A stretch of 64,000 bases of DNA from Peristeroidobacter soli (GTDB taxonomy: Bacteria > Pseudomonadota > Gammaproteobacteria > Steroidobacterales > Steroidobacteraceae). Numbering within the stretch: the stretch's first letter is position 1; every line of letters starts with the position of its first letter. The position numbers and the translations under genes were made by a program. The notes under the pieces were generated by a model that worked only from the letters and a program-made list of their open reading frames with translations, searched no databases and was not told the DNA's origin. Location of the stretch: the NCBI RefSeq assembly GCF_004138485.1, contig NZ_ML142848.1, positions 1,648,640 through 1,712,639 on the forward strand. The letters are read 5' to 3'. This document shows, in pieces, positions 33,377 to 45,060 of this stretch.

Positions 33377-35428
33377 ATGAGTCGCATCGTTGCCTCCCTG
33401 GGTACCCTGATCAGTGTCATCGCACTCGCCAGTTGTGCGACGACCCACAATCCACCCGCTGCCTCGCCGACGCTGCACTTCCAGATCGACGAAGGGCGCA
33501 ACATCAACAGCTTCGTGCGCGAAGGCGCGGTCGCCGCGCACTTGTTACTACGATCTGGAACTGATCCACGCATTCTCGTGGCGTTTCCTGCCGGCAATAG
33601 CGGTGTGGGCCTCTGGTTCAACAAAAGCGACCCGCCGGTTGAATGGACACTCTCGCAGCCTCCCACGCCGCTGACAGAGAAAGATGCGAAGGGCCGGCCA
33701 CTGCATGGCCTCGAAGCAGAGGTCACAGTCGATACCGCGACACTCAACATTCACGAAGCCGTGCTGTCGTCAGTGCGCGTGCTGCGCGACTATCAAGCAC
33801 TCGGCACGCTGCCGGATGGCATTGCCGTCGCGCCTGCTATCAGCGGCAATCGCATCGTGTGGGCCCGATCGCGACTGGACGGCGCCACTGGGTATCGGCT
33901 CTCGGTCGAAGCGCTCGATGGCGCGCAAGTTTCCAAAGAAGCCATCAGTGGCAACGGCAAGCTGCGATTGAAGATCGTCGCGCTCACTGGCGAGACACCA
34001 CTCACGCCGATCGACAATACTTCGCTGCTGACCGCGACCGCCGCTCGCGACACACGTGCTCGTGACGTGCTCACGTTCCTCAGCTATCGCGAGAAGTATC
34101 TGGCCGGCTCGTGGCGCTTCGACACGTATTTCGGCCGCGACACCCTGATGTCACTCACGCTGCTCGCACCGGTGCTGCAAAACCTGGCCATCGAGAGCGG
34201 CATCGGCGCCGTGCTGACCCGCCTCGCGCCGAATGGGGAAGTCGCGCACGAAGAAGACATCGGCGAGTTCGCCGTGCTCCGCAACGCCAAGGAAGGGCGC
34301 GGCGCCATCGACACGCCGATCTACGACTACGGCATGATCGATGACGATTTCATGCTCGCGCCGGTCACCGCCAATTGGCTGCTGGCGAGCGCAGGCCGGG
34401 CGGTTGCGCCGAAGTTTCTTGCGGACCAAAATGCCGCCGGCCGGCGACAAGGCGACGCTCTGGTACGGAATCTGGTGTGGGTGGTCGAACGCACGGCTGC
34501 ATTCGCCGCCGATCCGACAGCTACGAATCTGGTCGGCCTCAAGGAAGGCCGCATGACCGGGCAATGGCGCGATAGCGAGGAAGGCCTGGGTCGGGGACGT
34601 TACGCCTATGACGTGAACGCGGTGTTTGTTCCCGCCGCGCTCGACGCCATCGATCGATTGCTCGAGAGCGGCTTGCTCGATGGCTATCTCACCGATGCTC
34701 AACGTCGCACGTTGCAGAAAGCGAGCGCTCAACGCGACGTGTGGTCTCGCAAAGCGCCGCCGATGTTTACTGTGACCTTGCCAGCGAAACAGGCGCGGGA
34801 TCAGATTACGACTTATGCGACCGCGGTCGGCGTGGATGCGAAGACGGCGCTGGAGAATCTGCGCGAGCCCTCACTGACCTTCAATGCGCTGTCGCTCGAT
34901 GCGAGCGGCAAGCCGATCCCCATCATGCATTCCGACGATGGCTTCGCGCTGCTGTTCACCCAGCCGACGGCGGCACAACTGCAACGTTCGATCGATGCGC
35001 TCATGCGGCCGTTCCCCGCCGGGCTGTTGACGCCCGTCGGCATGTTGGTCGCGAACCCTGCGTTTGCCGATCGCGAGACGCAGTCACGCTTCGATAACAC
35101 GGCGTATCACGGCACGGTCGTGTGGTCGTGGCAGCAGGCGGTGTTTGCGGCGGGATTGAGTCGTCAGCTGGCGCGGACTGATCTGTCGGCGGATCTGCGC
35201 ACTCGATTGCAAACGGCGCGGTCGCAACTGTGGAAGGCGATCGATGCCGGTAACGCGCTACGCTCGTCGGAACTTTGGTCGTGGTCGTTCTCGAACGGTC
35301 GGTATCGACCCGAGGCGTTCGGACAGCACAACACGCACGCGGATGAATCGAACGCGGCTCAGCTCTGGAGCACGGTGTATCTGTCGTTCCAGAACGGCGA
35401 ATGGCTGGGCGCCCGGCAGTCGCCTTGA
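33377..35428 (+). CDS. Lipoprotein with an (alpha/alpha) glycosidase-like toroid
   Basis: 683 residues. Lipobox ALASC (Cys20) marks an envelope lipoprotein. The region about 225-670 looks like a six-hairpin glycosidase fold: SWRFDTYFGRDTLMSLTLL resembles the start of the catalytic region of amylo-glucosidase/GH15/GH63-like enzymes, with acidic candidates in EEDIGEFAVLRN and YDYGMIDDDFM, later WRDSEEGLGRGRYAYDVNAVFVPAALD and a VVWSWQQAVF segment. I infer a periplasmic glycoside hydrolase or related protein; family number and substrate are not assignable by eye. It stands alone, 68 nt after the hydrolase gene. Confidence 0.65.
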   Translation: MSRIVASLGTLISVIALASCATTHNPPAASPTLHFQIDEGRNINSFVREGAVAAHLLLRSGTDPRILVAFPAGNSGVGLWFNKSDPPVEWTLSQPPTPLTEKDAKGRPLHGLEAEVTVDTATLNIHEAVLSSVRVLRDYQALGTLPDGIAVAPAISGNRIVWARSRLDGATGYRLSVEALDGAQVSKEAISGNGKLRLKIVALTGETPLTPIDNTSLLTATAARDTRARDVLTFLSYREKYLAGSWRFDTYFGRDTLMSLTLLAPVLQNLAIESGIGAVLTRLAPNGEVAHEEDIGEFAVLRNAKEGRGAIDTPIYDYGMIDDDFMLAPVTANWLLASAGRAVAPKFLADQNAAGRRQGDALVRNLVWVVERTAAFAADPTATNLVGLKEGRMTGQWRDSEEGLGRGRYAYDVNAVFVPAALDAIDRLLESGLLDGYLTDAQRRTLQKASAQRDVWSRKAPPMFTVTLPAKQARDQITTYATAVGVDAKTALENLREPSLTFNALSLDASGKPIPIMHSDDGFALLFTQPTAAQLQRSIDALMRPFPAGLLTPVGMLVANPAFADRETQSRFDNTAYHGTVVWSWQQAVFAAGLSRQLARTDLSADLRTRLQTARSQLWKAIDAGNALRSSELWSWSFSNGRYRPEAFGQHNTHADESNAAQLWSTVYLSFQNGEWLGARQSP

Positions 35429-35538
35429 ATCGACCGTAATTTGGCGCTGCTCCGAGCAGGCGTCGAGAATCGACCGTAATTGGCGCTGCTCTGAGCAGGC
35501 GTCGAGAATCGACCGTTACTTGGGGCTGCTTCGGGCGG
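35427..35538. repeat. Three tandem hairpin-forming repeats of about 38-40 bp
   Basis: Directly at the stop codon of the preceding gene begin three copies of GAATCGACCGT followed by AATTTGGCGCTGCT or a close variant and a GAGCAGGCGTCGA-like end. The first copies contain CTGCTC / GAGCAG inverted arms around one base; the third has CTGCTTCGGGCGG. They lie between convergent genes (stops at 35428 and 35549), so they may act as bidirectional terminators or as a small REP-like array. Confidence 0.8.
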
Positions 35539-36730: not shown

Positions 36731-38770
36731 TTAGAAATCGAACTGGATGCCGGCGCGCACCGTGCGCGGCGTGCCGGGAGCAAACAGGAGCTGGCCGCCG
36801 ATGACCGAGACCGACGTGGCGTATTTCTCATCGGTGACGTTGTCGAGCCGGGCATAGACGCGGTAGTTACGCTCGCCGCGGGCCGTGTATGAAACGCCGA
36901 GATCGAGCAGATCGTAGTTCTCCGCCTGCAGTGTATTGAACGCATCGACGTCGTACTCGCCGACGTAGCGCCAGAACGCGCTGAAGCTCCAATCCTCGAA
37001 CGGCCGGAGGGTTGCTTCGAGGCTGCCGGAATTCTCAGGCACGCCGGCCACCGACAATCCCAGCAGACGGGCATCCGCGTTCTGCGTCACCTCAGTGTCG
37101 GTAACGCCATAGACCGCGCTCAATTCAAAACTCTCGACCGGTTTCCATCGCGCGCTCGCCTCGACGCCTTTGCGCAAGGTCGCGCCGTAGTTCTCATAGA
37201 CGCCCGGCGACACCGTGCGCACTTCGCCAGTCGACTTCAGACGATAACCGGCGACGTCGAATTCGAACACGTCGGCCGCGGTGAAGTGCGCGCCAATCTC
37301 GGTCTGCCGGAAGATGTTCTCGTCCAGCGGCTGGCCGCCGATCGCATATTTCACAAACCCGTTCGGCAGTGCGAAGCCTTCCGACCAGCTCGCGCGCAGT
37401 TGCAGCCAGTCGGCCACTTGCGAGTTCAAACCCAGCTTCGGACTCACATGATCCGCTTTGTTGAGCGCACCGCAGGGGTCGGAGCCCGTCTCCGCTCCGC
37501 GCAACTCACAACCGCCCGTGAAACGATCCGCGCGCAGACCGACCGACAGCTGCGCGAGCGGGTGCAGGGTTGCCCTGATTTCAGTAAACGCGGACACGCT
37601 GTTGAGCTCGGTCTCGCGATTCGACTGCGCCGGCAGAACTCGGCGACGATGATCCAGGCCGTCGAAGAACTTGTACTCGGTGGACTCGCGGAAGGTTTCG
37701 ACGCCGGCGATGTAACTCACCGGGACCGACGCCAGCGACGTCACGCCATTCAAGCTCGTGCCGGCGCCGTATACGCTGCGATCGTAAGTCTCTTCGCGCT
37801 GCCGCCAGGTCGTCGCATTGATGGGCCGCGAGAACCATCGCGTGAAATCCTGCTGAGTCGTGTATGCGAACGTCAGCAGCTTCAGCTCGTCATTGATCGC
37901 ATAGTTCAAGTCGCCGCGAACCGTCAGGAATTCCTTGTCCGCGCCGTCGTTCTGAGTGTTCGGATCGATGCCGCGAGGGTCGGTTTCGAACTGCGTCTGT
38001 GTCAGATACGACGCAGAATCGCTCTCCGACTGTAAGTAACGCGTCGACAGCGCGACCTGCAGCGCCGGCGTGACTTCCGCCGACCAACGACCGGCGAACG
38101 TGCCACGCTCCGTGTGACCCTGCGGCCGATAACCGTCAGTGCGAAACAGCTGGCCGGCAAGGTTGACCTGCTGAGTGTCACCGAGCTGCGAGCCATAGGC
38201 CGCTTGCAGATCCACCGTGCCATACGAGCCCAGCGACAGGTCCGTCTCGGCGTAGTCGCCGCTCTTGCGCGTCTGGATATCGACCAGGCCGCCGCGATTG
38301 TAGTTGCCGTACAGCGCCGACACCGGGCCTTTGAAAACCGTGAACGAATCGATCTCCAGCGGCACGACCGTGTTCAGATCGACGTAGCCGTCGGCGTGCG
38401 ACATGGCTTCGTTGAGCGGAATGCCATCGATCACCGCGCCGAGATCGCCGCCGTGACCGCCATTGCCGAAGCCGCGAATCACGATATTGCTGGCCACCGA
38501 GCCGAGCTGCAGATCGCGCACGACCATGCCGGGTACGAGCCGAAACAGATCGTCGACATCCGCCAGCGCCTGCTCGCGAATCATGGAAGTATCGAGCACC
38601 GTCGCGCTGTAAGCCGACTCTTGGGCACGAAGCAACTGACCCTTCACAACCACTTCGTCGATGGTCGCCTCACCGGGCTGCATGTCGGCCACCGCGCCGA
38701 GCGACAGCGAGCCCAGCGCGCAAGCCACCGCCCATCGCAATCCGTTATTGATCGCCACGACCGTCTCCAT
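36731..38770 (-). CDS. TonB-dependent receptor, probable nickel (complex) importer
   Basis: 679 residues from ATG 38770, whose A is shared with the TGA of the HupE-like gene (TGATG); GTG 38773 is the alternative. Signal peptide ends near LGAVADM; TonB-box-like region ATIDEVVVKG; plug motifs DVDDLFRLVPGMVVRDLQ, VIRGFGNGGHGGDLGAVIDGI and FKGPVSALYGNYNRGGLVDI. The plug is shorter and its last motif differs from siderophore receptors. Ligand is inferred from its place between a HupE/UreJ-like permease and a DUF4198 gene, divergent from nikR: nickel or a nickel chelate. Confidence 0.88.
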   Translation of the reverse strand: METVVAINNGLRWAVACALGSLSLGAVADMQPGEATIDEVVVKGQLLRAQESAYSATVLDTSMIREQALADVDDLFRLVPGMVVRDLQLGSVASNIVIRGFGNGGHGGDLGAVIDGIPLNEAMSHADGYVDLNTVVPLEIDSFTVFKGPVSALYGNYNRGGLVDIQTRKSGDYAETDLSLGSYGTVDLQAAYGSQLGDTQQVNLAGQLFRTDGYRPQGHTERGTFAGRWSAEVTPALQVALSTRYLQSESDSASYLTQTQFETDPRGIDPNTQNDGADKEFLTVRGDLNYAINDELKLLTFAYTTQQDFTRWFSRPINATTWRQREETYDRSVYGAGTSLNGVTSLASVPVSYIAGVETFRESTEYKFFDGLDHRRRVLPAQSNRETELNSVSAFTEIRATLHPLAQLSVGLRADRFTGGCELRGAETGSDPCGALNKADHVSPKLGLNSQVADWLQLRASWSEGFALPNGFVKYAIGGQPLDENIFRQTEIGAHFTAADVFEFDVAGYRLKSTGEVRTVSPGVYENYGATLRKGVEASARWKPVESFELSAVYGVTDTEVTQNADARLLGLSVAGVPENSGSLEATLRPFEDWSFSAFWRYVGEYDVDAFNTLQAENYDLLDLGVSYTARGERNYRVYARLDNVTDEKYATSVSVIGGQLLFAPGTPRTVRAGIQFDF

Positions 38771-39510
38771 CACGAGGGGTAAACAACGCCTTCAGTCACC
38801 GCAGCAGCTGCCTGCGAGGATGTGACATAGCCATGCACTTGCAGAGCCAACAACACCGCGCTCGCCGCGATCAAAGCACCGTTGGCGACGCGCGTGATCG
38901 CAGGGAACGCAGAACTCGTGCGCCAGACCTTGACGACCGCGGTCATCAACACCAACGCGGCGATCTGCCCGAGCTCGACGCCGATGTTGAATGCGATGAT
39001 TTTCGTCACCAGCTCCGGATCTTTCGCCAGCGTCATCTGCTGCAGGCGGGTCGACAGGCCGAAGCCGTGAATCAAGCCGAACACGAACACCATGAACAGC
39101 AGATTGGGCGCAGGCCGCCCGAACCAGCGACGAAACAAATCGAGATTCTCGAACGCCTTGTAAGTCACGGTCAGCGCAATGACCGCGTCGACCAGATGAG
39201 GATTGGCGGTGATGCCCGCCAGCGTCGCGAACAACAGCGTGATCGTGTGACCCGCGGTGAACGCGGTGATGAAGACGACGATCTGGCTGAAGCGCGTCAG
39301 AAACAGCATCACGCCGAGCAGAAACAGCAAATGATCGTAGCCAGTGAGCATGTGCTCGGCGCCGATCCACGCGGCATCGAAGAAGCCGCCGATCAGCATG
39401 CGCTGTTGCGCTTGTTCGCTGACCGAGTGCGCCATCGCCGTGGCAGCGGCGAGCAGCGCGCTCGCCGAGCCACATGCGACACACAATAGCTTTGAAAAAC
39501 GGCTTCTCAC
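38770..39510 (-). CDS. HupE/UreJ-family membrane protein (nickel permease-like)
   Basis: 246 residues from GTG 39510. Sec signal (ending near ATAMA), a periplasmic stretch, then about six TM helices. HupE/UreJ hallmarks are present: GAEHMLTGYDHLLFLLG (the H...D...H motif of the first helix), FTAGHTITL, TVTYKAFEN and FGLIHGFGL. HupE and UreJ proteins are secondary nickel permeases. First gene of a four-gene operon transcribed away from nikR. Confidence 0.88.
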   Translation of the reverse strand: MRSRFSKLLCVACGSASALLAAATAMAHSVSEQAQQRMLIGGFFDAAWIGAEHMLTGYDHLLFLLGVMLFLTRFSQIVVFITAFTAGHTITLLFATLAGITANPHLVDAVIALTVTYKAFENLDLFRRWFGRPAPNLLFMVFVFGLIHGFGLSTRLQQMTLAKDPELVTKIIAFNIGVELGQIAALVLMTAVVKVWRTSSAFPAITRVANGALIAASAVLLALQVHGYVTSSQAAAAVTEGVVYPS

Positions 39511-39566
39511 GACCGGCCACGCCCCTCATCGAATCATTCGCATCGAACCGTCCGAGGCGCGAGCGG

Positions 39567-39597
39567 GGTGTATGATGAATCTGAAATATTTCACACC
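39567..39597. promoter_or_regulatory. Candidate NikR operator between divergent nickel genes
   Basis: GTATGA (39570-39575) and TCACAC (39591-39596) are spaced by 15 bp; the enterobacterial NikR consensus is GTATGA-N16-TCATAC. The element also has perfect outer arms GGTGT (39567-39571) and ACACC (39593-39597), and TATGAT at 39571-39576 could serve as a -10 box. It lies 57 nt from the hupE-like start and 98 nt from nikR. Confidence 0.5.
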
Positions 39598-39694
39598 GAT
39601 TGCAGATCGCCAAATTTTTCTGCCTCTGCATGACGCCCGGGAATGCGCGCATTCCTTTGAGTTATGCTGACGGCCTCGCGACACGAGAGCTCCC

Positions 39695-40156
39695 ATGCGC
39701 CGACTCACCATTTCCATCGACGACGATCTCGCCGACACCTTCGATCAGTTCATGCAGCAGAAGGGTTACCAGAATCGTTCCGAGGCCTTTCGCGATTTGT
39801 TACGCAGCGAGCTGGACCGGGACACGGTGAATCACGGCGGCGCGCACCACTGTGTGGCGGCACTGAGTTATGTGTACAACCATCACGAGCGTCAGCTCGC
39901 CGGACGGCTGGCGCAGATCCAGCACGATCATCACGACGTGACGGTCTCGACCATGCACGCGCATCTGGATCACGACAATTGCATCGAGACCATGATCCTG
40001 CGCGGACACACGAACGAGGTGGTGCAGTTCGCCGAAGCGCTGATCGCCGAGAAGGGCGTGCGCCATGGCAAGTTCAATGTGATCCCGGTGGAGTCCGAAG
40101 CCAACGGGCGCACGCATCACCACCATCACCACGTCCACTTGCGACCGCACCGCTGA
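39695..40156 (+). CDS. nikR: Nickel-responsive regulator NikR with a natural His6 tail
   Basis: 153 residues. N-terminal ribbon-helix-helix DNA-binding domain (RLTISIDDDLADTFDQFM, NRSEAFRDLLRS) and C-terminal ACT-like nickel-sensing domain. The square-planar nickel ligands line up with Escherichia coli NikR: His77, His88, His90 and Cys96 within THMHAHLDHDNC-like context. Nickel binding should repress uptake genes, here the divergent operon 39510-35549. The odd feature is an extension after the ACT domain, ending T-HHHHHH-VHLRPHR (His141-146), which the E. coli protein lacks. Confidence 0.95.
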   Translation: MRRLTISIDDDLADTFDQFMQQKGYQNRSEAFRDLLRSELDRDTVNHGGAHHCVAALSYVYNHHERQLAGRLAQIQHDHHDVTVSTMHAHLDHDNCIETMILRGHTNEVVQFAEALIAEKGVRHGKFNVIPVESEANGRTHHHHHHVHLRPHR

Positions 40157-41315: not shown

Positions 41316-44090
41316 TCAAGTGCTCGGCTTCGTCGCCTGCTGCGTCGGGACTGTCTTGTTGCCCTGATACACAGGCTGCGCGCCGAGCACCATCGCGTCG
41401 AGCTTGCGACGCTGATTGGTGTCGGTATAGAAGCGCGCGACCCGTTCGCGCGCCTTTTCGATCGTGTCGCGATCGACGCCGGACGACGAAGAGATGACAC
41501 GCAGGCTCGACACGAGATAGCGCTCCGCATCGTCGTTGCGCTTTTCACGATGCAGCACTTCGCCCAGCGCGCTGGCGGAACGGGCCGAACGCCATTCGGG
41601 CGCATCGGTGCGCTTCCAGCGATTCATCGACGCGGTGAACGCAGCCTCGGCGTCCGCCAGCTTGCCGCTGCCGGCCAGCGCCTCGCCCAGATAGTGCTCG
41701 GCCGACGCCACATACTCGTGATCGGGCGGCAGGCTCTTGGCAAACAGATCCAGCGTGCTACGAAGCACTTCCTCGGCATCGGCGAACTTGGACTGCTTGA
41801 TCAGCACCGTGCCCAGCATGGTTTGCAGGTAGCCGATCTTGCCGTAAGCGGTGCTGCCTGAATCGTGGTGCGCGGACAAAGCTTCGCGGACCAGCCCTTC
41901 GGCGGACTTCGGATCGCCTTGCGCCATGCGGACCTGTGCCAACGATGCGAGCGTATCGGCGACCTTGCTGTTCGACTTGTAGAGCAAGCGCTGCGCCGTC
42001 AGCGTCCGCTCGAAGATGGGCGCGGCTTCAGAGACGCGGCCTTGATAGAGCAGAATCTCGCCGAGGTGATAGTCGGCCTTGATGCGATCGGGATACAGCT
42101 CGGCCACGTCGCGATAGATATCGACCGCTTCGCGAGCCGCCGCTTCCGCGCCCTGCAGGTCGTCGGACCAGGCCAGAATGTTGGCAATCTCGCTCAGGAT
42201 GCTGCCGACTTCAGGATCGCGCGGCCCGCGCGCCTGGCGCATCAACTGCAGCGCCTTGGTGAAGGATTGATAGGCCTGGGTCGTATTGCTGCGCAGGTTT
42301 TCGAGCCGGCCGTTTTCGACCAGCAGCGTCGCCGTGACTTCCGGATCGGTCTCGCCCGACAGCTGGGTCATCTGCTGCGCTTCGGTGAACAGCTGATCGG
42401 ACTGTTTGAATTGCCCGGCCTCGCGCGTGGCAATCGCCAGCTCGATCAACAACGACGCCGTGCGGGGGTTGTTGCCCGGCTGCAGCTGTCGCTGCAGACG
42501 CAGGGCGCTTTCCAGCTGCGGGATGGCCCGGTCGGGCAAGCCCATACGGCGGTACGCAACCCCGATGGTTTCCAGCAGCGGCGAACGCACTTCGGGCTGC
42601 TCGCCCAGATCGGTTTCGATGGAACGGCTGGCCTGATCCAACACGTCGCGAGCGGTTTGCTCGCGCCCGAAGTTCACGAACGGGTCGGCCGCGGCGAACA
42701 TGTTTCGCATGAAGCCCGACACCTTCTCGGCGCGCTCCTTTTCCTGCGTGGCCAGGACCAGCGCGGCTTCCGTCTGCGAGCGCTGGTAGGACATCACCGC
42801 CGAGACGCCGATGAGGAACATCACGAAGCTGGCGCTGGCCGCGACCGCGAGGCGATTCCGGCGCACGAACCGATTGGTGTAGTAAACCCAGTTGCCCTGC
42901 CGCGCCTGAACCGGCTCGCTCGACAGGTGACGCCGGATGTCGGCCATCAGCTGTTCGACGGAGCTGTAACGGGCCTGCGACTCCTTGCGGAGCGCGCGCA
43001 TGATGATGGCGTCGAGGTCGCCGATCAGAGTGCGCTCCAGCTTGTCCGGCGTCGTGCCGCGAGCGGTCGCGAGGGCGGCAATCGACGGCTCGTCTTCGGT
43101 CGGCACCGACGACTTCGCCGCACTCACGGCGGCGCTCGGGCGCATCGGATCGGTCACGCAGATGGCGCGCTCGAGTTCGAGCTGACTCGCCGACGACGAG
43201 GACAATGTGTACGGACGCAGGCCAGTGAGTAATTGATACAAAACGACGCCGAGCGAATACACGTCGCTGGCGGTGGTCACCGGCTTGCCCAGGATCTGTT
43301 CAGGACTCGCGTACTCGGGCGTGAGCAGGCGATCGTTCATGCGCGTCAGATCGGACGGCTTGGTGACGTCGCTGGAGTCCAGCAGTTTGGCGATGCCGAA
43401 GTCGAGCAGCTTGGGCACGGCTTCGCCGGTCACCAGGATGTTGGCGGGCTTGATGTCGCGATGAACGATCAGGTTCTGGTGCGCGTACTGCACGGCGCCG
43501 CAGACCTGAAGAAACAATTCGAGCCGCGCGCGCAGATCGAGCTGCTGCCGGTCGCAGTATTGATCCACGGGCTCGCCGTGGATGTATTCCATGACCAGGT
43601 ACGGTTGACGGTTCTCGGTCTCGCCGGCATCCAGCAGCCGGGCGATGTTGGGATGATTCAGACTGGCCAGGATCTGGCGTTCGGCCCGGAACCGCAGGCC
43701 GAACGAGGCCGCGGCACTCTCATCGATGATCTTGACCGCGACCTGGGCGGAATACTGTTTGTCGGCGCGCTCGCCGAGATAGACGGTGCCCGAGCCGCCG
43801 CGGCCCAGCACGGAAACGATCATGTACTGGCCGATCACCCGGCCAATCAGATTCCGATTGTGATTGTCGGCGGAATTGTGCACCGCCTGACCGATCGCCC
43901 GCGAGATCGGTCCGGTGCCATGGTGAGTGAAAGCGAACGCCACCAGGTCCAGCAGCTCCCGCATTTCCTCGGGATTGATGGCGTGTTTACGAATGAAAGA
44001 CTCACGCTCCGCGCGCTGCAGCTTGGTCGCTTTGGCGAATAGATCCTCTATTCGCTTCCAGCGTTCTTCTGGCGCGTTCGGACTTGTCAT
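41316..44090 (-). CDS. Transmembrane Ser/Thr protein kinase with C-terminal TPR domain
   Basis: 924 residues. After an N-terminal helical segment lies a Hanks-type kinase domain (about 88-370): glycine loop GRGGSG (96-101), Lys120 in VAVKII, HRDIKPANIL (210-212 HRD), DFG at 230-232 and LTPEYASPEQ in the activation segment, all intact, so it should be active. A single TM helix follows (about 413-433), and then about 490 residues of TPR-type helical repeats, predicted outside the cytoplasm. This layout is that of receptor-like bacterial kinases sensing an extracytoplasmic signal. It diverges from the tandem-repeat peptide genes, with 283 bp between the starts. No phosphatase is nearby. Confidence 0.92.
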   Translation of the reverse strand: MTSPNAPEERWKRIEDLFAKATKLQRAERESFIRKHAINPEEMRELLDLVAFAFTHHGTGPISRAIGQAVHNSADNHNRNLIGRVIGQYMIVSVLGRGGSGTVYLGERADKQYSAQVAVKIIDESAAASFGLRFRAERQILASLNHPNIARLLDAGETENRQPYLVMEYIHGEPVDQYCDRQQLDLRARLELFLQVCGAVQYAHQNLIVHRDIKPANILVTGEAVPKLLDFGIAKLLDSSDVTKPSDLTRMNDRLLTPEYASPEQILGKPVTTASDVYSLGVVLYQLLTGLRPYTLSSSSASQLELERAICVTDPMRPSAAVSAAKSSVPTEDEPSIAALATARGTTPDKLERTLIGDLDAIIMRALRKESQARYSSVEQLMADIRRHLSSEPVQARQGNWVYYTNRFVRRNRLAVAASASFVMFLIGVSAVMSYQRSQTEAALVLATQEKERAEKVSGFMRNMFAAADPFVNFGREQTARDVLDQASRSIETDLGEQPEVRSPLLETIGVAYRRMGLPDRAIPQLESALRLQRQLQPGNNPRTASLLIELAIATREAGQFKQSDQLFTEAQQMTQLSGETDPEVTATLLVENGRLENLRSNTTQAYQSFTKALQLMRQARGPRDPEVGSILSEIANILAWSDDLQGAEAAAREAVDIYRDVAELYPDRIKADYHLGEILLYQGRVSEAAPIFERTLTAQRLLYKSNSKVADTLASLAQVRMAQGDPKSAEGLVREALSAHHDSGSTAYGKIGYLQTMLGTVLIKQSKFADAEEVLRSTLDLFAKSLPPDHEYVASAEHYLGEALAGSGKLADAEAAFTASMNRWKRTDAPEWRSARSASALGEVLHREKRNDDAERYLVSSLRVISSSSGVDRDTIEKARERVARFYTDTNQRRKLDAMVLGAQPVYQGNKTVPTQQATKPST

Positions 44091-44252: not shown

Positions 44253-44373
44253 ATCCATTTTCCTTTGCATAATGAACAATCCATGTGACGGGCTTCACAA
44301 GTTAAGATCACTTGGAATAACGAGCCCGGCGTTTTGAAGGTTGGGACACATTTTTTTCTCGCGGGAGTGTTCA

Positions 44374-44796
44374 ATGCGCATTCGTCTAGTCTCTGTAGCT
44401 GCCGCCACCATCGTTGGCGCCCTTATGACAAATGCCGCGCTCGCTGGCGACACCGGCGGCGCGAAACGCCCCCTGCTCCAACTCGCCGGCGACACCGGCG
44501 GTGCCAAGCGCCCCCTCCTCGCCGGTGACACTGGCGGTGCCAAGCGTCCCCTGTTCCAGCTCGCCGGCGATACCGGCGGTGCCAAGCGTCCCCTGCTCGC
44601 CGGCGACACCGGCGGTGCCAAGCGTCCCCTGTTCCAGCTCGCCGGCGACACCGGCGGTGCCAAGCGTCCCCTGCTCGCCGGCGACACTGGCGGTGCCAAG
44701 CGTCCGCTGCTCGCTGGCGACACCGGCGGTGCCAAGCGCCCGCTGCTCGCTGGTGACACCGGCGGTGCCAAGCGCCCCCTCGTGGTCGCGGGTTGA
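44374..44796 (+). CDS. Secreted tandem-repeat peptide precursor, nine copies of GDTGGAKRPL
   Basis: 140 residues from ATG 44374, with GGGAG upstream. A Sec signal (residues 1-24, ending NAALA) is followed exactly at the predicted cut by nine units, each GDTGGAKRPL plus a short spacer: LQLA, LA, FQLA, LA, FQLA, LA, LA, LA and a final VVAG. The core decapeptide is invariant in all nine. Every boundary reads [LQ]LA-G or LA-G, like the signal cleavage site itself. The mature part has no Cys, Ser or aromatic residue other than two Phe. It forms an operon with the 57-aa peptide gene 24 nt downstream. I know of no family with this sequence; it looks like a multi-copy peptide precursor or a short repetitive surface protein. 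Confidence 0.88.
   Translation: MRIRLVSVAAATIVGALMTNAALAGDTGGAKRPLLQLAGDTGGAKRPLLAGDTGGAKRPLFQLAGDTGGAKRPLLAGDTGGAKRPLFQLAGDTGGAKRPLLAGDTGGAKRPLLAGDTGGAKRPLLAGDTGGAKRPLVVAG
44446..44793 (+). repeat. Tandem 36/42-bp coding repeats
   Basis: Nine coding units: five of 36 bp, three of 42 bp (extra QL or FQL codons) and the last of 42 bp with a changed end. Copies are nearly identical at nucleotide level, differing mostly at third positions, which indicates recent duplication or gene conversion together with selection on the peptide. Confidence 0.9.
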
Positions 44797-44820
44797 TCGA
44801 GCAGATTCAGGAGCACAGTC

Positions 44821-44994
44821 ATGAAAAAGTTCTTCCTGCTTTCCCTTAGCGTCGTTGCCCTGCTCCCGGTGGTGGCTGGCACGGCTGGTCCGGCCAACAG
44901 CTCCACCCCGGTCGCGCAGTCGACCGACCTGTCGCCCGCGCTGATCGATGCGCTCAAGGCTCAGGCCGGCACGACCCTGTCCCGCCCGCTCTAA
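44821..44994 (+). CDS. 57-aa secreted peptide, partner of the repeat precursor
   Basis: ATG 44821 follows AGGAG with good spacing. The product has a Sec signal (MKKFFLLSLSVVALLPVVAG) and a short mature part rich in Ser, Thr, Pro and Ala, containing an amphipathic stretch LSPALIDALKAQ. The last nine residues, AGTTLSRPL, look like a worn copy of the AGDTGGAKRPL unit of the gene upstream. It is too short for most gene callers. Function unknown; shared operon and shared end motif suggest a common processing or binding partner. Confidence 0.75.
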   Translation: MKKFFLLSLSVVALLPVVAGTAGPANSSTPVAQSTDLSPALIDALKAQAGTTLSRPL

Positions 44995-45015: not shown

Positions 45016-45060
45016 AAGGCGCGTGGTCCGGTCATCCCGGGCCACGCGCCTTATTCATTT
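45016..45060 (+). terminator. Strong intrinsic terminator of the peptide operon
   Basis: Arms AAGGCGCGTGG (45016-45026) and CCACGCGCCTT (45042-45052) extend inward through TCCGG and CCGGG to a 16-bp stem with a 5-nt loop, followed by TTATTCATTT. It lies 22 nt after the second peptide gene. The bases from 45061 to 45187 show nothing further. Confidence 0.88.

Follow-up and report, generated by a model that had tools for sequence, protein, structure and literature searches.

The closest described relatives of the system treated here are pairs of a group ECF43 extracytoplasmic function (ECF) sigma factor and a Hanks-type Ser/Thr kinase, represented by PknS-EcfK from Xanthomonas citri and PknT-EcfP from Vibrio parahaemolyticus, as described in the portions of these papers available to us (PMC13147305, PMC8999054, PMC8103513). 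According to the same excerpts, the sigma2.2 DxxD motif is replaced in ECF43 by an uncharged threonine motif, with the consensus QTTA and the variant QATE in EcfK (PMC13147305). A kinase of similar build is encoded in the window, namely the whole analysed stretch of 64,000 nucleotides from Peristeroidobacter soli (contig NZ_ML142848.1), where it stands divergent from an operon for a secreted tandem-repeat peptide precursor and a companion peptide (Table 1). Like PknS, as far as the available account of that kinase goes, it is transmembrane, with an N-terminal extension and a periplasmic tetratricopeptide repeat (TPR) domain. Unlike PknS-EcfK and PknT-EcfP, for which the available portions name neither a peptide gene nor a ligand, it faces a peptide operon. 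The whole looks like an undescribed bacterial peptide-signalling system, and no account of such a repeat-peptide/kinase system turned up in the literature searched, most subscription journals being outside its coverage. It is proposed, at slightly below even odds (about 0.47), that the precursor is a secreted multi-copy signal: its released units and the companion would act on the groove of the kinase next to them, and an ECF43-type sigma factor would carry the signal on to the promoter of the peptide genes themselves.

Table 1. Features of the peptide-kinase locus in the window
Feature	Coordinates	Strand	Basis
Promoter-like block TGTGAC-GGG-nn-TCnCA-N8-TCnCTT, ending 60 nt 5' of the precursor start	44284..44313	+	Upstream-region comparison, pattern search
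Tandem-repeat peptide precursor, 140 aa	44374..44796	+	Open reading frame (ORF) reading
Sec-type signal peptide, 24 aa, last residues ALA abutting unit 1	44374..44445	+	A-x-A pattern
Nine GDTGGAKRPL units with spacers LA, LQLA, FQLA	44446..44781	+	Sequence match, repeat finding
Companion secreted peptide, 57 aa, C-terminus ...TLSRPL	44821..44994	+	ORF reading, locus comparison
Intrinsic terminator, 16-bp stem, -34.4 kcal/mol, z -5.6	45016..45052	+	Folding energy
Hanks-type Ser/Thr kinase, 924 aa: N-terminal segment, kinase domain, transmembrane segment, periplasmic TPR domain; proposed receptor	41316..44090	-	Family matches, tree, comparison

Regarding the precursor, the first-pass annotation had described a Sec signal ending right where nine perfect GDTGGAKRPL units with varying spacers begin, in an operon with good ribosome sites, a strong terminator and no modification enzyme beside it, and all of these points were borne out. 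The A-x-A pattern places the signal end at the first unit, and the back-translated decapeptide has exactly nine matches in the 9.37 Mb genome, all within the array (reversed-pattern control, 0). The units start at 44446, 44488, 44524, 44566, 44602, 44644, 44680, 44716 and 44752, and the spacers between them (LA five times, FQLA twice, LQLA once) vary in both length and sequence; Tandem Repeats Finder delimits the array at 44439-44781, in three overlapping rows. Eight distinct DNA sequences occur among the nine units, and because they differ, and only synonymously (proportion of differing synonymous sites, pS, 0.336; of non-synonymous sites, pN, 0), the array is no fresh product of slippage. 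Shine-Dalgarno-like sequences precede the precursor (GGGAG) and the companion (AGGAG), which begins 24 nt downstream of it. The precursor is predicted to be unfolded, with a helix predicted for residues 4-20 in the signal peptide region. Neither peptide has a Pfam or PADLOC match (both at E 0.01); NCBIfam at E 1 gave nothing for the precursor and two matches far below cut-off for the companion, and Rfam gave no match in the window at gathering scores.

As judged from sequence, a real, secreted multi-unit precursor with a companion, under selection, is well supported, and to that extent the earlier peptide-precursor reading stands; its operon-only view missed a wider system, made up of the divergent kinase, an ECF sigma factor in a sister locus, the promoter-like block, the variety of cores among relatives and a companion C-terminus that echoes the core. 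The units would be freed as separate peptides. A predicted unfolded, multi-unit substrate with variable spacers would also suit a sentinel of proteolysis or damage, a sacrificial precursor cut by foreign or stress-induced proteases whose fragments report the attack to the kinase, and a similar kinase works in predator resistance, according to the available part of that work. Only a slim chance is given to a sentinel with its presumed cleavage, a role that sequence hardly separates from that of a signal precursor.

Tandem identical peptides between spacers in a single secreted precursor are also the plan of yeast alpha-factor and insect apidaecin, which are eukaryotic and have known processing enzymes; the likeness is one of layout, and no sequence relation is claimed. 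Several identical cores per precursor are likewise found in multi-core ribosomally synthesized and post-translationally modified peptides (RiPPs), such as cyanobactins and graspetides. The present precursor differs from these in carrying a Sec-type signal in place of a RiPP leader. The neighbours tested at the window and at the second peptide locus of this genome (L034) include no recognisable modification enzyme, though an unlinked one may exist, and no known precursor or leader family was matched; the L034 precursor has only sub-cut-off, chance-like profile matches.

The transmembrane segment of the kinase was read from the sequence, and as the TPR domain follows it after the kinase domain, that domain should lie outside the cytoplasm; the PADLOC matches fall on the kinase domain. 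Secreted tandem-repeat genes stand divergent to one clade of Hanks-type/TPR kinases in the genus of the window and in five more genera of its family. In a first comparison, a kinase of one family lay beside the repeat gene in 16 of 19 regions; the other three (L040, L046, L049), which are short contigs or contig ends, have none. By one automatic rule, a repeat ORF was found at 25 of 27 clade loci versus 1 of 49 related kinases outside the clade, and a companion at 24 of the 27 versus none of the 49. The kinase tree gathers the peptide-bearing loci into one clade, which includes contig-end kinases without readable upstream DNA (e.g., L206), and the order-wide kinase search shows a score gap between 1146 and 865 bits. 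While L034-L051 were collected through the peptide search, and L102 through a cassette anchor with its peptide already found before, 12 loci were found through the cassette or kinase only (L103, L106, L173, L176-L184), and repeats were present by the same rule in 10 of these (not L173 and L184). The association count excludes clade kinases at contig ends (L153, L172, L175, L185, L206), partial kinases (of G068, G116, G175 and others) and three loci with less than 700 nt upstream (L050, L051, L174), though each of the last three shows repeats; L288 was dropped from the controls likewise. The kinase searches scored only 4, 2 or 3 candidates per genome, so that some members of the clade may have escaped them. 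A secreted-looking repetitive ORF of 401 aa (L285:8627-9832), from another family of the order, lies some 1.3 kb downstream of an ECF/kinase pair used as a control; it is not divergent, and it differs from the peptide family.

The cores of these arrays are diverse. The second array of this genome, at L034, has sixteen DGDSGGKRPV units, and relatives in the genus carry DDTGGAKRPL, DETAGGKRPL, DGTVGGKRPL, DGVVGGKRPL, DGSGGGKRPV, DGSGGAKRPL, DGDTGGKRPV, DGESGTKRPL, DGVVNVKRPQ and AENNPPMRPL, with ASSPGGIRPPQ in one relative from another genus. Those found through neighbouring genes show little or no likeness (ADNIxVRPPV, VTKLPRV, AVSLPPSRPP, GGRIPHAD, DGTTVPLPPK, LDSAPTLPPR, DAHPANPPR, DTPPASPPH, LDLPPTVPPH), and all the cores listed have at least one proline near a basic residue. 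Within arrays, core pN between units is 0 in 19 of 26, with synonymous sites differing by 6-65%, and 0.006-0.088 in the remaining seven, a pattern that shows purifying selection on the core at the sequence level. Between loci the cores differ, and they look unrelated between genera; consequently, a search with the repeat protein finds little past close kin, with matches in 21 of 200 genomes of the family at E 0.01, many of them weak, and in 6 of 296 genomes of the order at E 1e-4. Arrays hold 2-20 units, counted by a pattern set for each locus that misses deviating units (e.g., the first unit of L183); on reading, three degenerate units are seen in L184 and two in L178, and the array of G085, split across two contig ends (L046, L174), was read as two. 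Matches in plasmid and phage records (four and two, respectively), all below 60% identity, were judged low-complexity; at the matched positions the records carry no feature, a hypothetical one, an LPD7-domain protein or a putative tail protein. On a 3.3-kb contig, an (E/A)GVGT[A/G]KRPL-like array (L049:814-1290) has no visible signal peptide or kinase; lacking the signal peptide, it was left uncounted, and it may be a degenerate copy or an assembly product.

The loci follow two layouts. In type A (window, L035-L038, L041), the kinase is divergent from the peptide and companion genes and no ECF gene was found beside it; in type B (e.g., L034), Ysc84, kinase and ECF sigma genes are divergent from the peptide and companion genes, and several such loci continue with a thioredoxin-like gene, an unknown gene and TPR genes. 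At L034:9332-17298 there is a conserved cassette of a TlpA-like protein, an unknown 237-aa protein (no Pfam match), two large TPR proteins, a TPR lipoprotein and an ExbB-like protein, the last called by reading. Membership of the peptide in this TPR/TlpA cassette was dropped, because the first large TPR protein is present in 199 of the 296 genomes of the order and cassettes that lack the peptide exist; among 40 cassette loci, the three with a full-length clade kinase (L102, L103, L106) all carried the repeat gene. The adjacency of many loci to this envelope cassette, together with the number of units per array, would fit an intact, unprocessed repeat protein serving in the envelope or matrix as a disordered component with multivalent binding to a partner. 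Such a structural role is improbable, as the repeat gene tracks the kinase and not the cassette, the decapeptide is fixed while unit spacing varies from LA to FQLA, the protein is predicted to be unfolded and the cores look unrelated between genera.

The companion gene lies downstream of the precursor in 27 of 30 loci and encodes a short peptide with a signal-like N-terminus and often a helix-like segment (TPEMIAMWKATA or TPELLxALKAQA, by reading). A C-terminal Pro-Leu, Pro-Ile, Pro-Phe or Pro-Arg ends all 26 companions tested, out of 27 (L043 was left out), versus 3 of 170 background ORFs, a set chosen greedily and possibly including false genes. The companion was taken as the nearest downstream candidate, and five other candidates without the P[LIFR] end were set aside (L034, L036, L047, L176, L178). 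In L179-L184 the cores end in PP[R/H/K] and the companions in Pro-Arg, while elsewhere the companions end in Pro-[Leu/Ile/Phe], an echo of the core that amounts to a single between-clade contrast and not to a large number of independent events. At L173:5515-5694, a clade-locus peptide gene lacks clear repeats (ending APRKPL) and the companion is kept (ending PLARPL).

Regarding the proposed receptor, positions 2, 5, 9, 12 and 13 of the TPR register are concave. Three groove residues, R/W/R (R69, W195 and R391), do not vary among 35 clade kinases and reach at most 4% in 51 others. Coevolution between core and TPR domain was not shown, and the idea of an unusually variable groove was given up, since the control kinases vary there in like manner. 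The TPR domain gives fold matches to Rap/NprR, with other TPR proteins scoring alike. RRNPP receptors (Rap-Phr, NprR-NprX, AimR) are cytoplasmic, occur in Gram-positives and their phages, and bind imported, mostly single-copy peptides. A predicted TPR superhelix as sensor and presumed short secreted linear peptides would be shared with them, and the core diversity may be pherotype-like in the same sense; unlike RRNPP, the TPR domain here belongs to a kinase, as its periplasmic portion, and the precursors are multi-copy. The kinase may work like an RRNPP receptor, yet it is not an RRNPP member, its sensor domain being placed outside the cytoplasm.

Each of the two peptide genes of this genome has the promoter-like block upstream, and the search pattern was derived from them; the rest of the genome has no further site with fewer than three mismatches and six with three (reversed control, 1). 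When 12 genomes of the genus were scanned with a related pattern, 18 sites matched (control matches, 5 in total): all 12 sites with at most two mismatches lie at peptide genes, compared with two of the six with three. Counted by gene, 14 of the 21 known peptide genes of these genomes, in both type A and type B loci, have a match, and there is none at L035, L036, L037, L049, L051, L173 and L176. Part of the block is the palindrome TGTGA-N6-TCACA, possibly a CRP/Clp site, and the block would be read by an ECF sigma factor. Of the 30 clade loci, 18 have an ECF gene together with the kinase; none was found among the checked neighbours of the clade kinases of the window, L035-L038, L041, L051, L106, L173 and L176-L178. 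The type B ECF matches Sigma70_ECF, has TIGR02999 as its best NCBIfam match and, at the site that holds the phosphorylated threonine in ECF43 members, reads QATA in 18 of 20 aligned proteins and QPTA in two (L172, L179). As in the ECF43/Hanks pairs, so far as the available descriptions go, its gene directly precedes that of the kinase, and it is provisionally called ECF43-type. The type A locus of the window differs from those pairs in having no adjacent ECF; it may work with the ECF of L034, yet by adjacency it is not a member of the ECF43/Hanks pairs.

A sigma factor target would also be expected if the peptides were output and not input, the kinase and ECF sensing envelope stress, a predator or a competitor and the repeat peptides being the secreted response, e.g., antimicrobial or defensive. 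The proline/basic cores presumably resemble proline-rich antimicrobial peptides, and the available portions of the papers on the known pairs describe responses to amoebae (PknS/EcfK) and polymyxin (PknT/EcfP). Nevertheless, an output role is considered unlikely, since alone it leaves unexplained the peptide-kinase linkage at loci without an ECF, the clade-specific groove residues and the core diversity, and the neighbours tested include no recognisable immunity gene.

From the repeat array, the selection on its core, the kinase association, the companion, the block and the groove signature, all read in the sequences compared, we infer a signalling course of processing, binding, phosphorylation, use of the block by a regulator, feedback and biological output. 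Sec would export the precursor, which would stay unstructured, and a periplasmic or extracellular protease would cut the variable spacers, giving many copies of GDTGGAKRPL or a trimmed form. The peptide would bind the concave groove of the periplasmic TPR domain through the fixed Arg/Trp/Arg pocket, and the exposed R-P-L C-terminus of the companion probably binds the same groove. Then, the kinase would phosphorylate the ECF43-type sigma factor encoded in the sister locus, which would transcribe the peptide operons from the shared block, closing an autoinducing loop. More tentative is the broader claim of a new kind of Gram-negative pheromone system, uniting diverse, multi-copy, Sec-exported cognate ligands, a Hanks kinase with a TPR sensor, a ligand-mimicking companion C-terminus and an ECF43-type autoinducing loop.

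Elsewhere in the window, adjoining genes for a TonB-dependent receptor, a HupE/UreJ-type membrane protein and a NikR-type regulator (36731-40156) look like a unit for nickel uptake and its control, and a 39-bp tandem repeat lies at 35427-35530 (2.6 copies, 92% matches).

In the available part of the PknS study, activation through the periplasmic TPR region is left to future work (PMC13147305). The clade described here travels with an encoded candidate ligand, and therefore TPR-domain activation of PknS-type kinases becomes testable with a synthetic decapeptide. If the proposed signalling role is true, it would provide an encoded natural ligand for a PknS-like kinase, would bring multi-copy signalling by linear peptides, with a diversity like that of pherotypes, to Gram-negative bacteria, and would place the logic of receptor kinase and peptide hormone outside eukaryotes.
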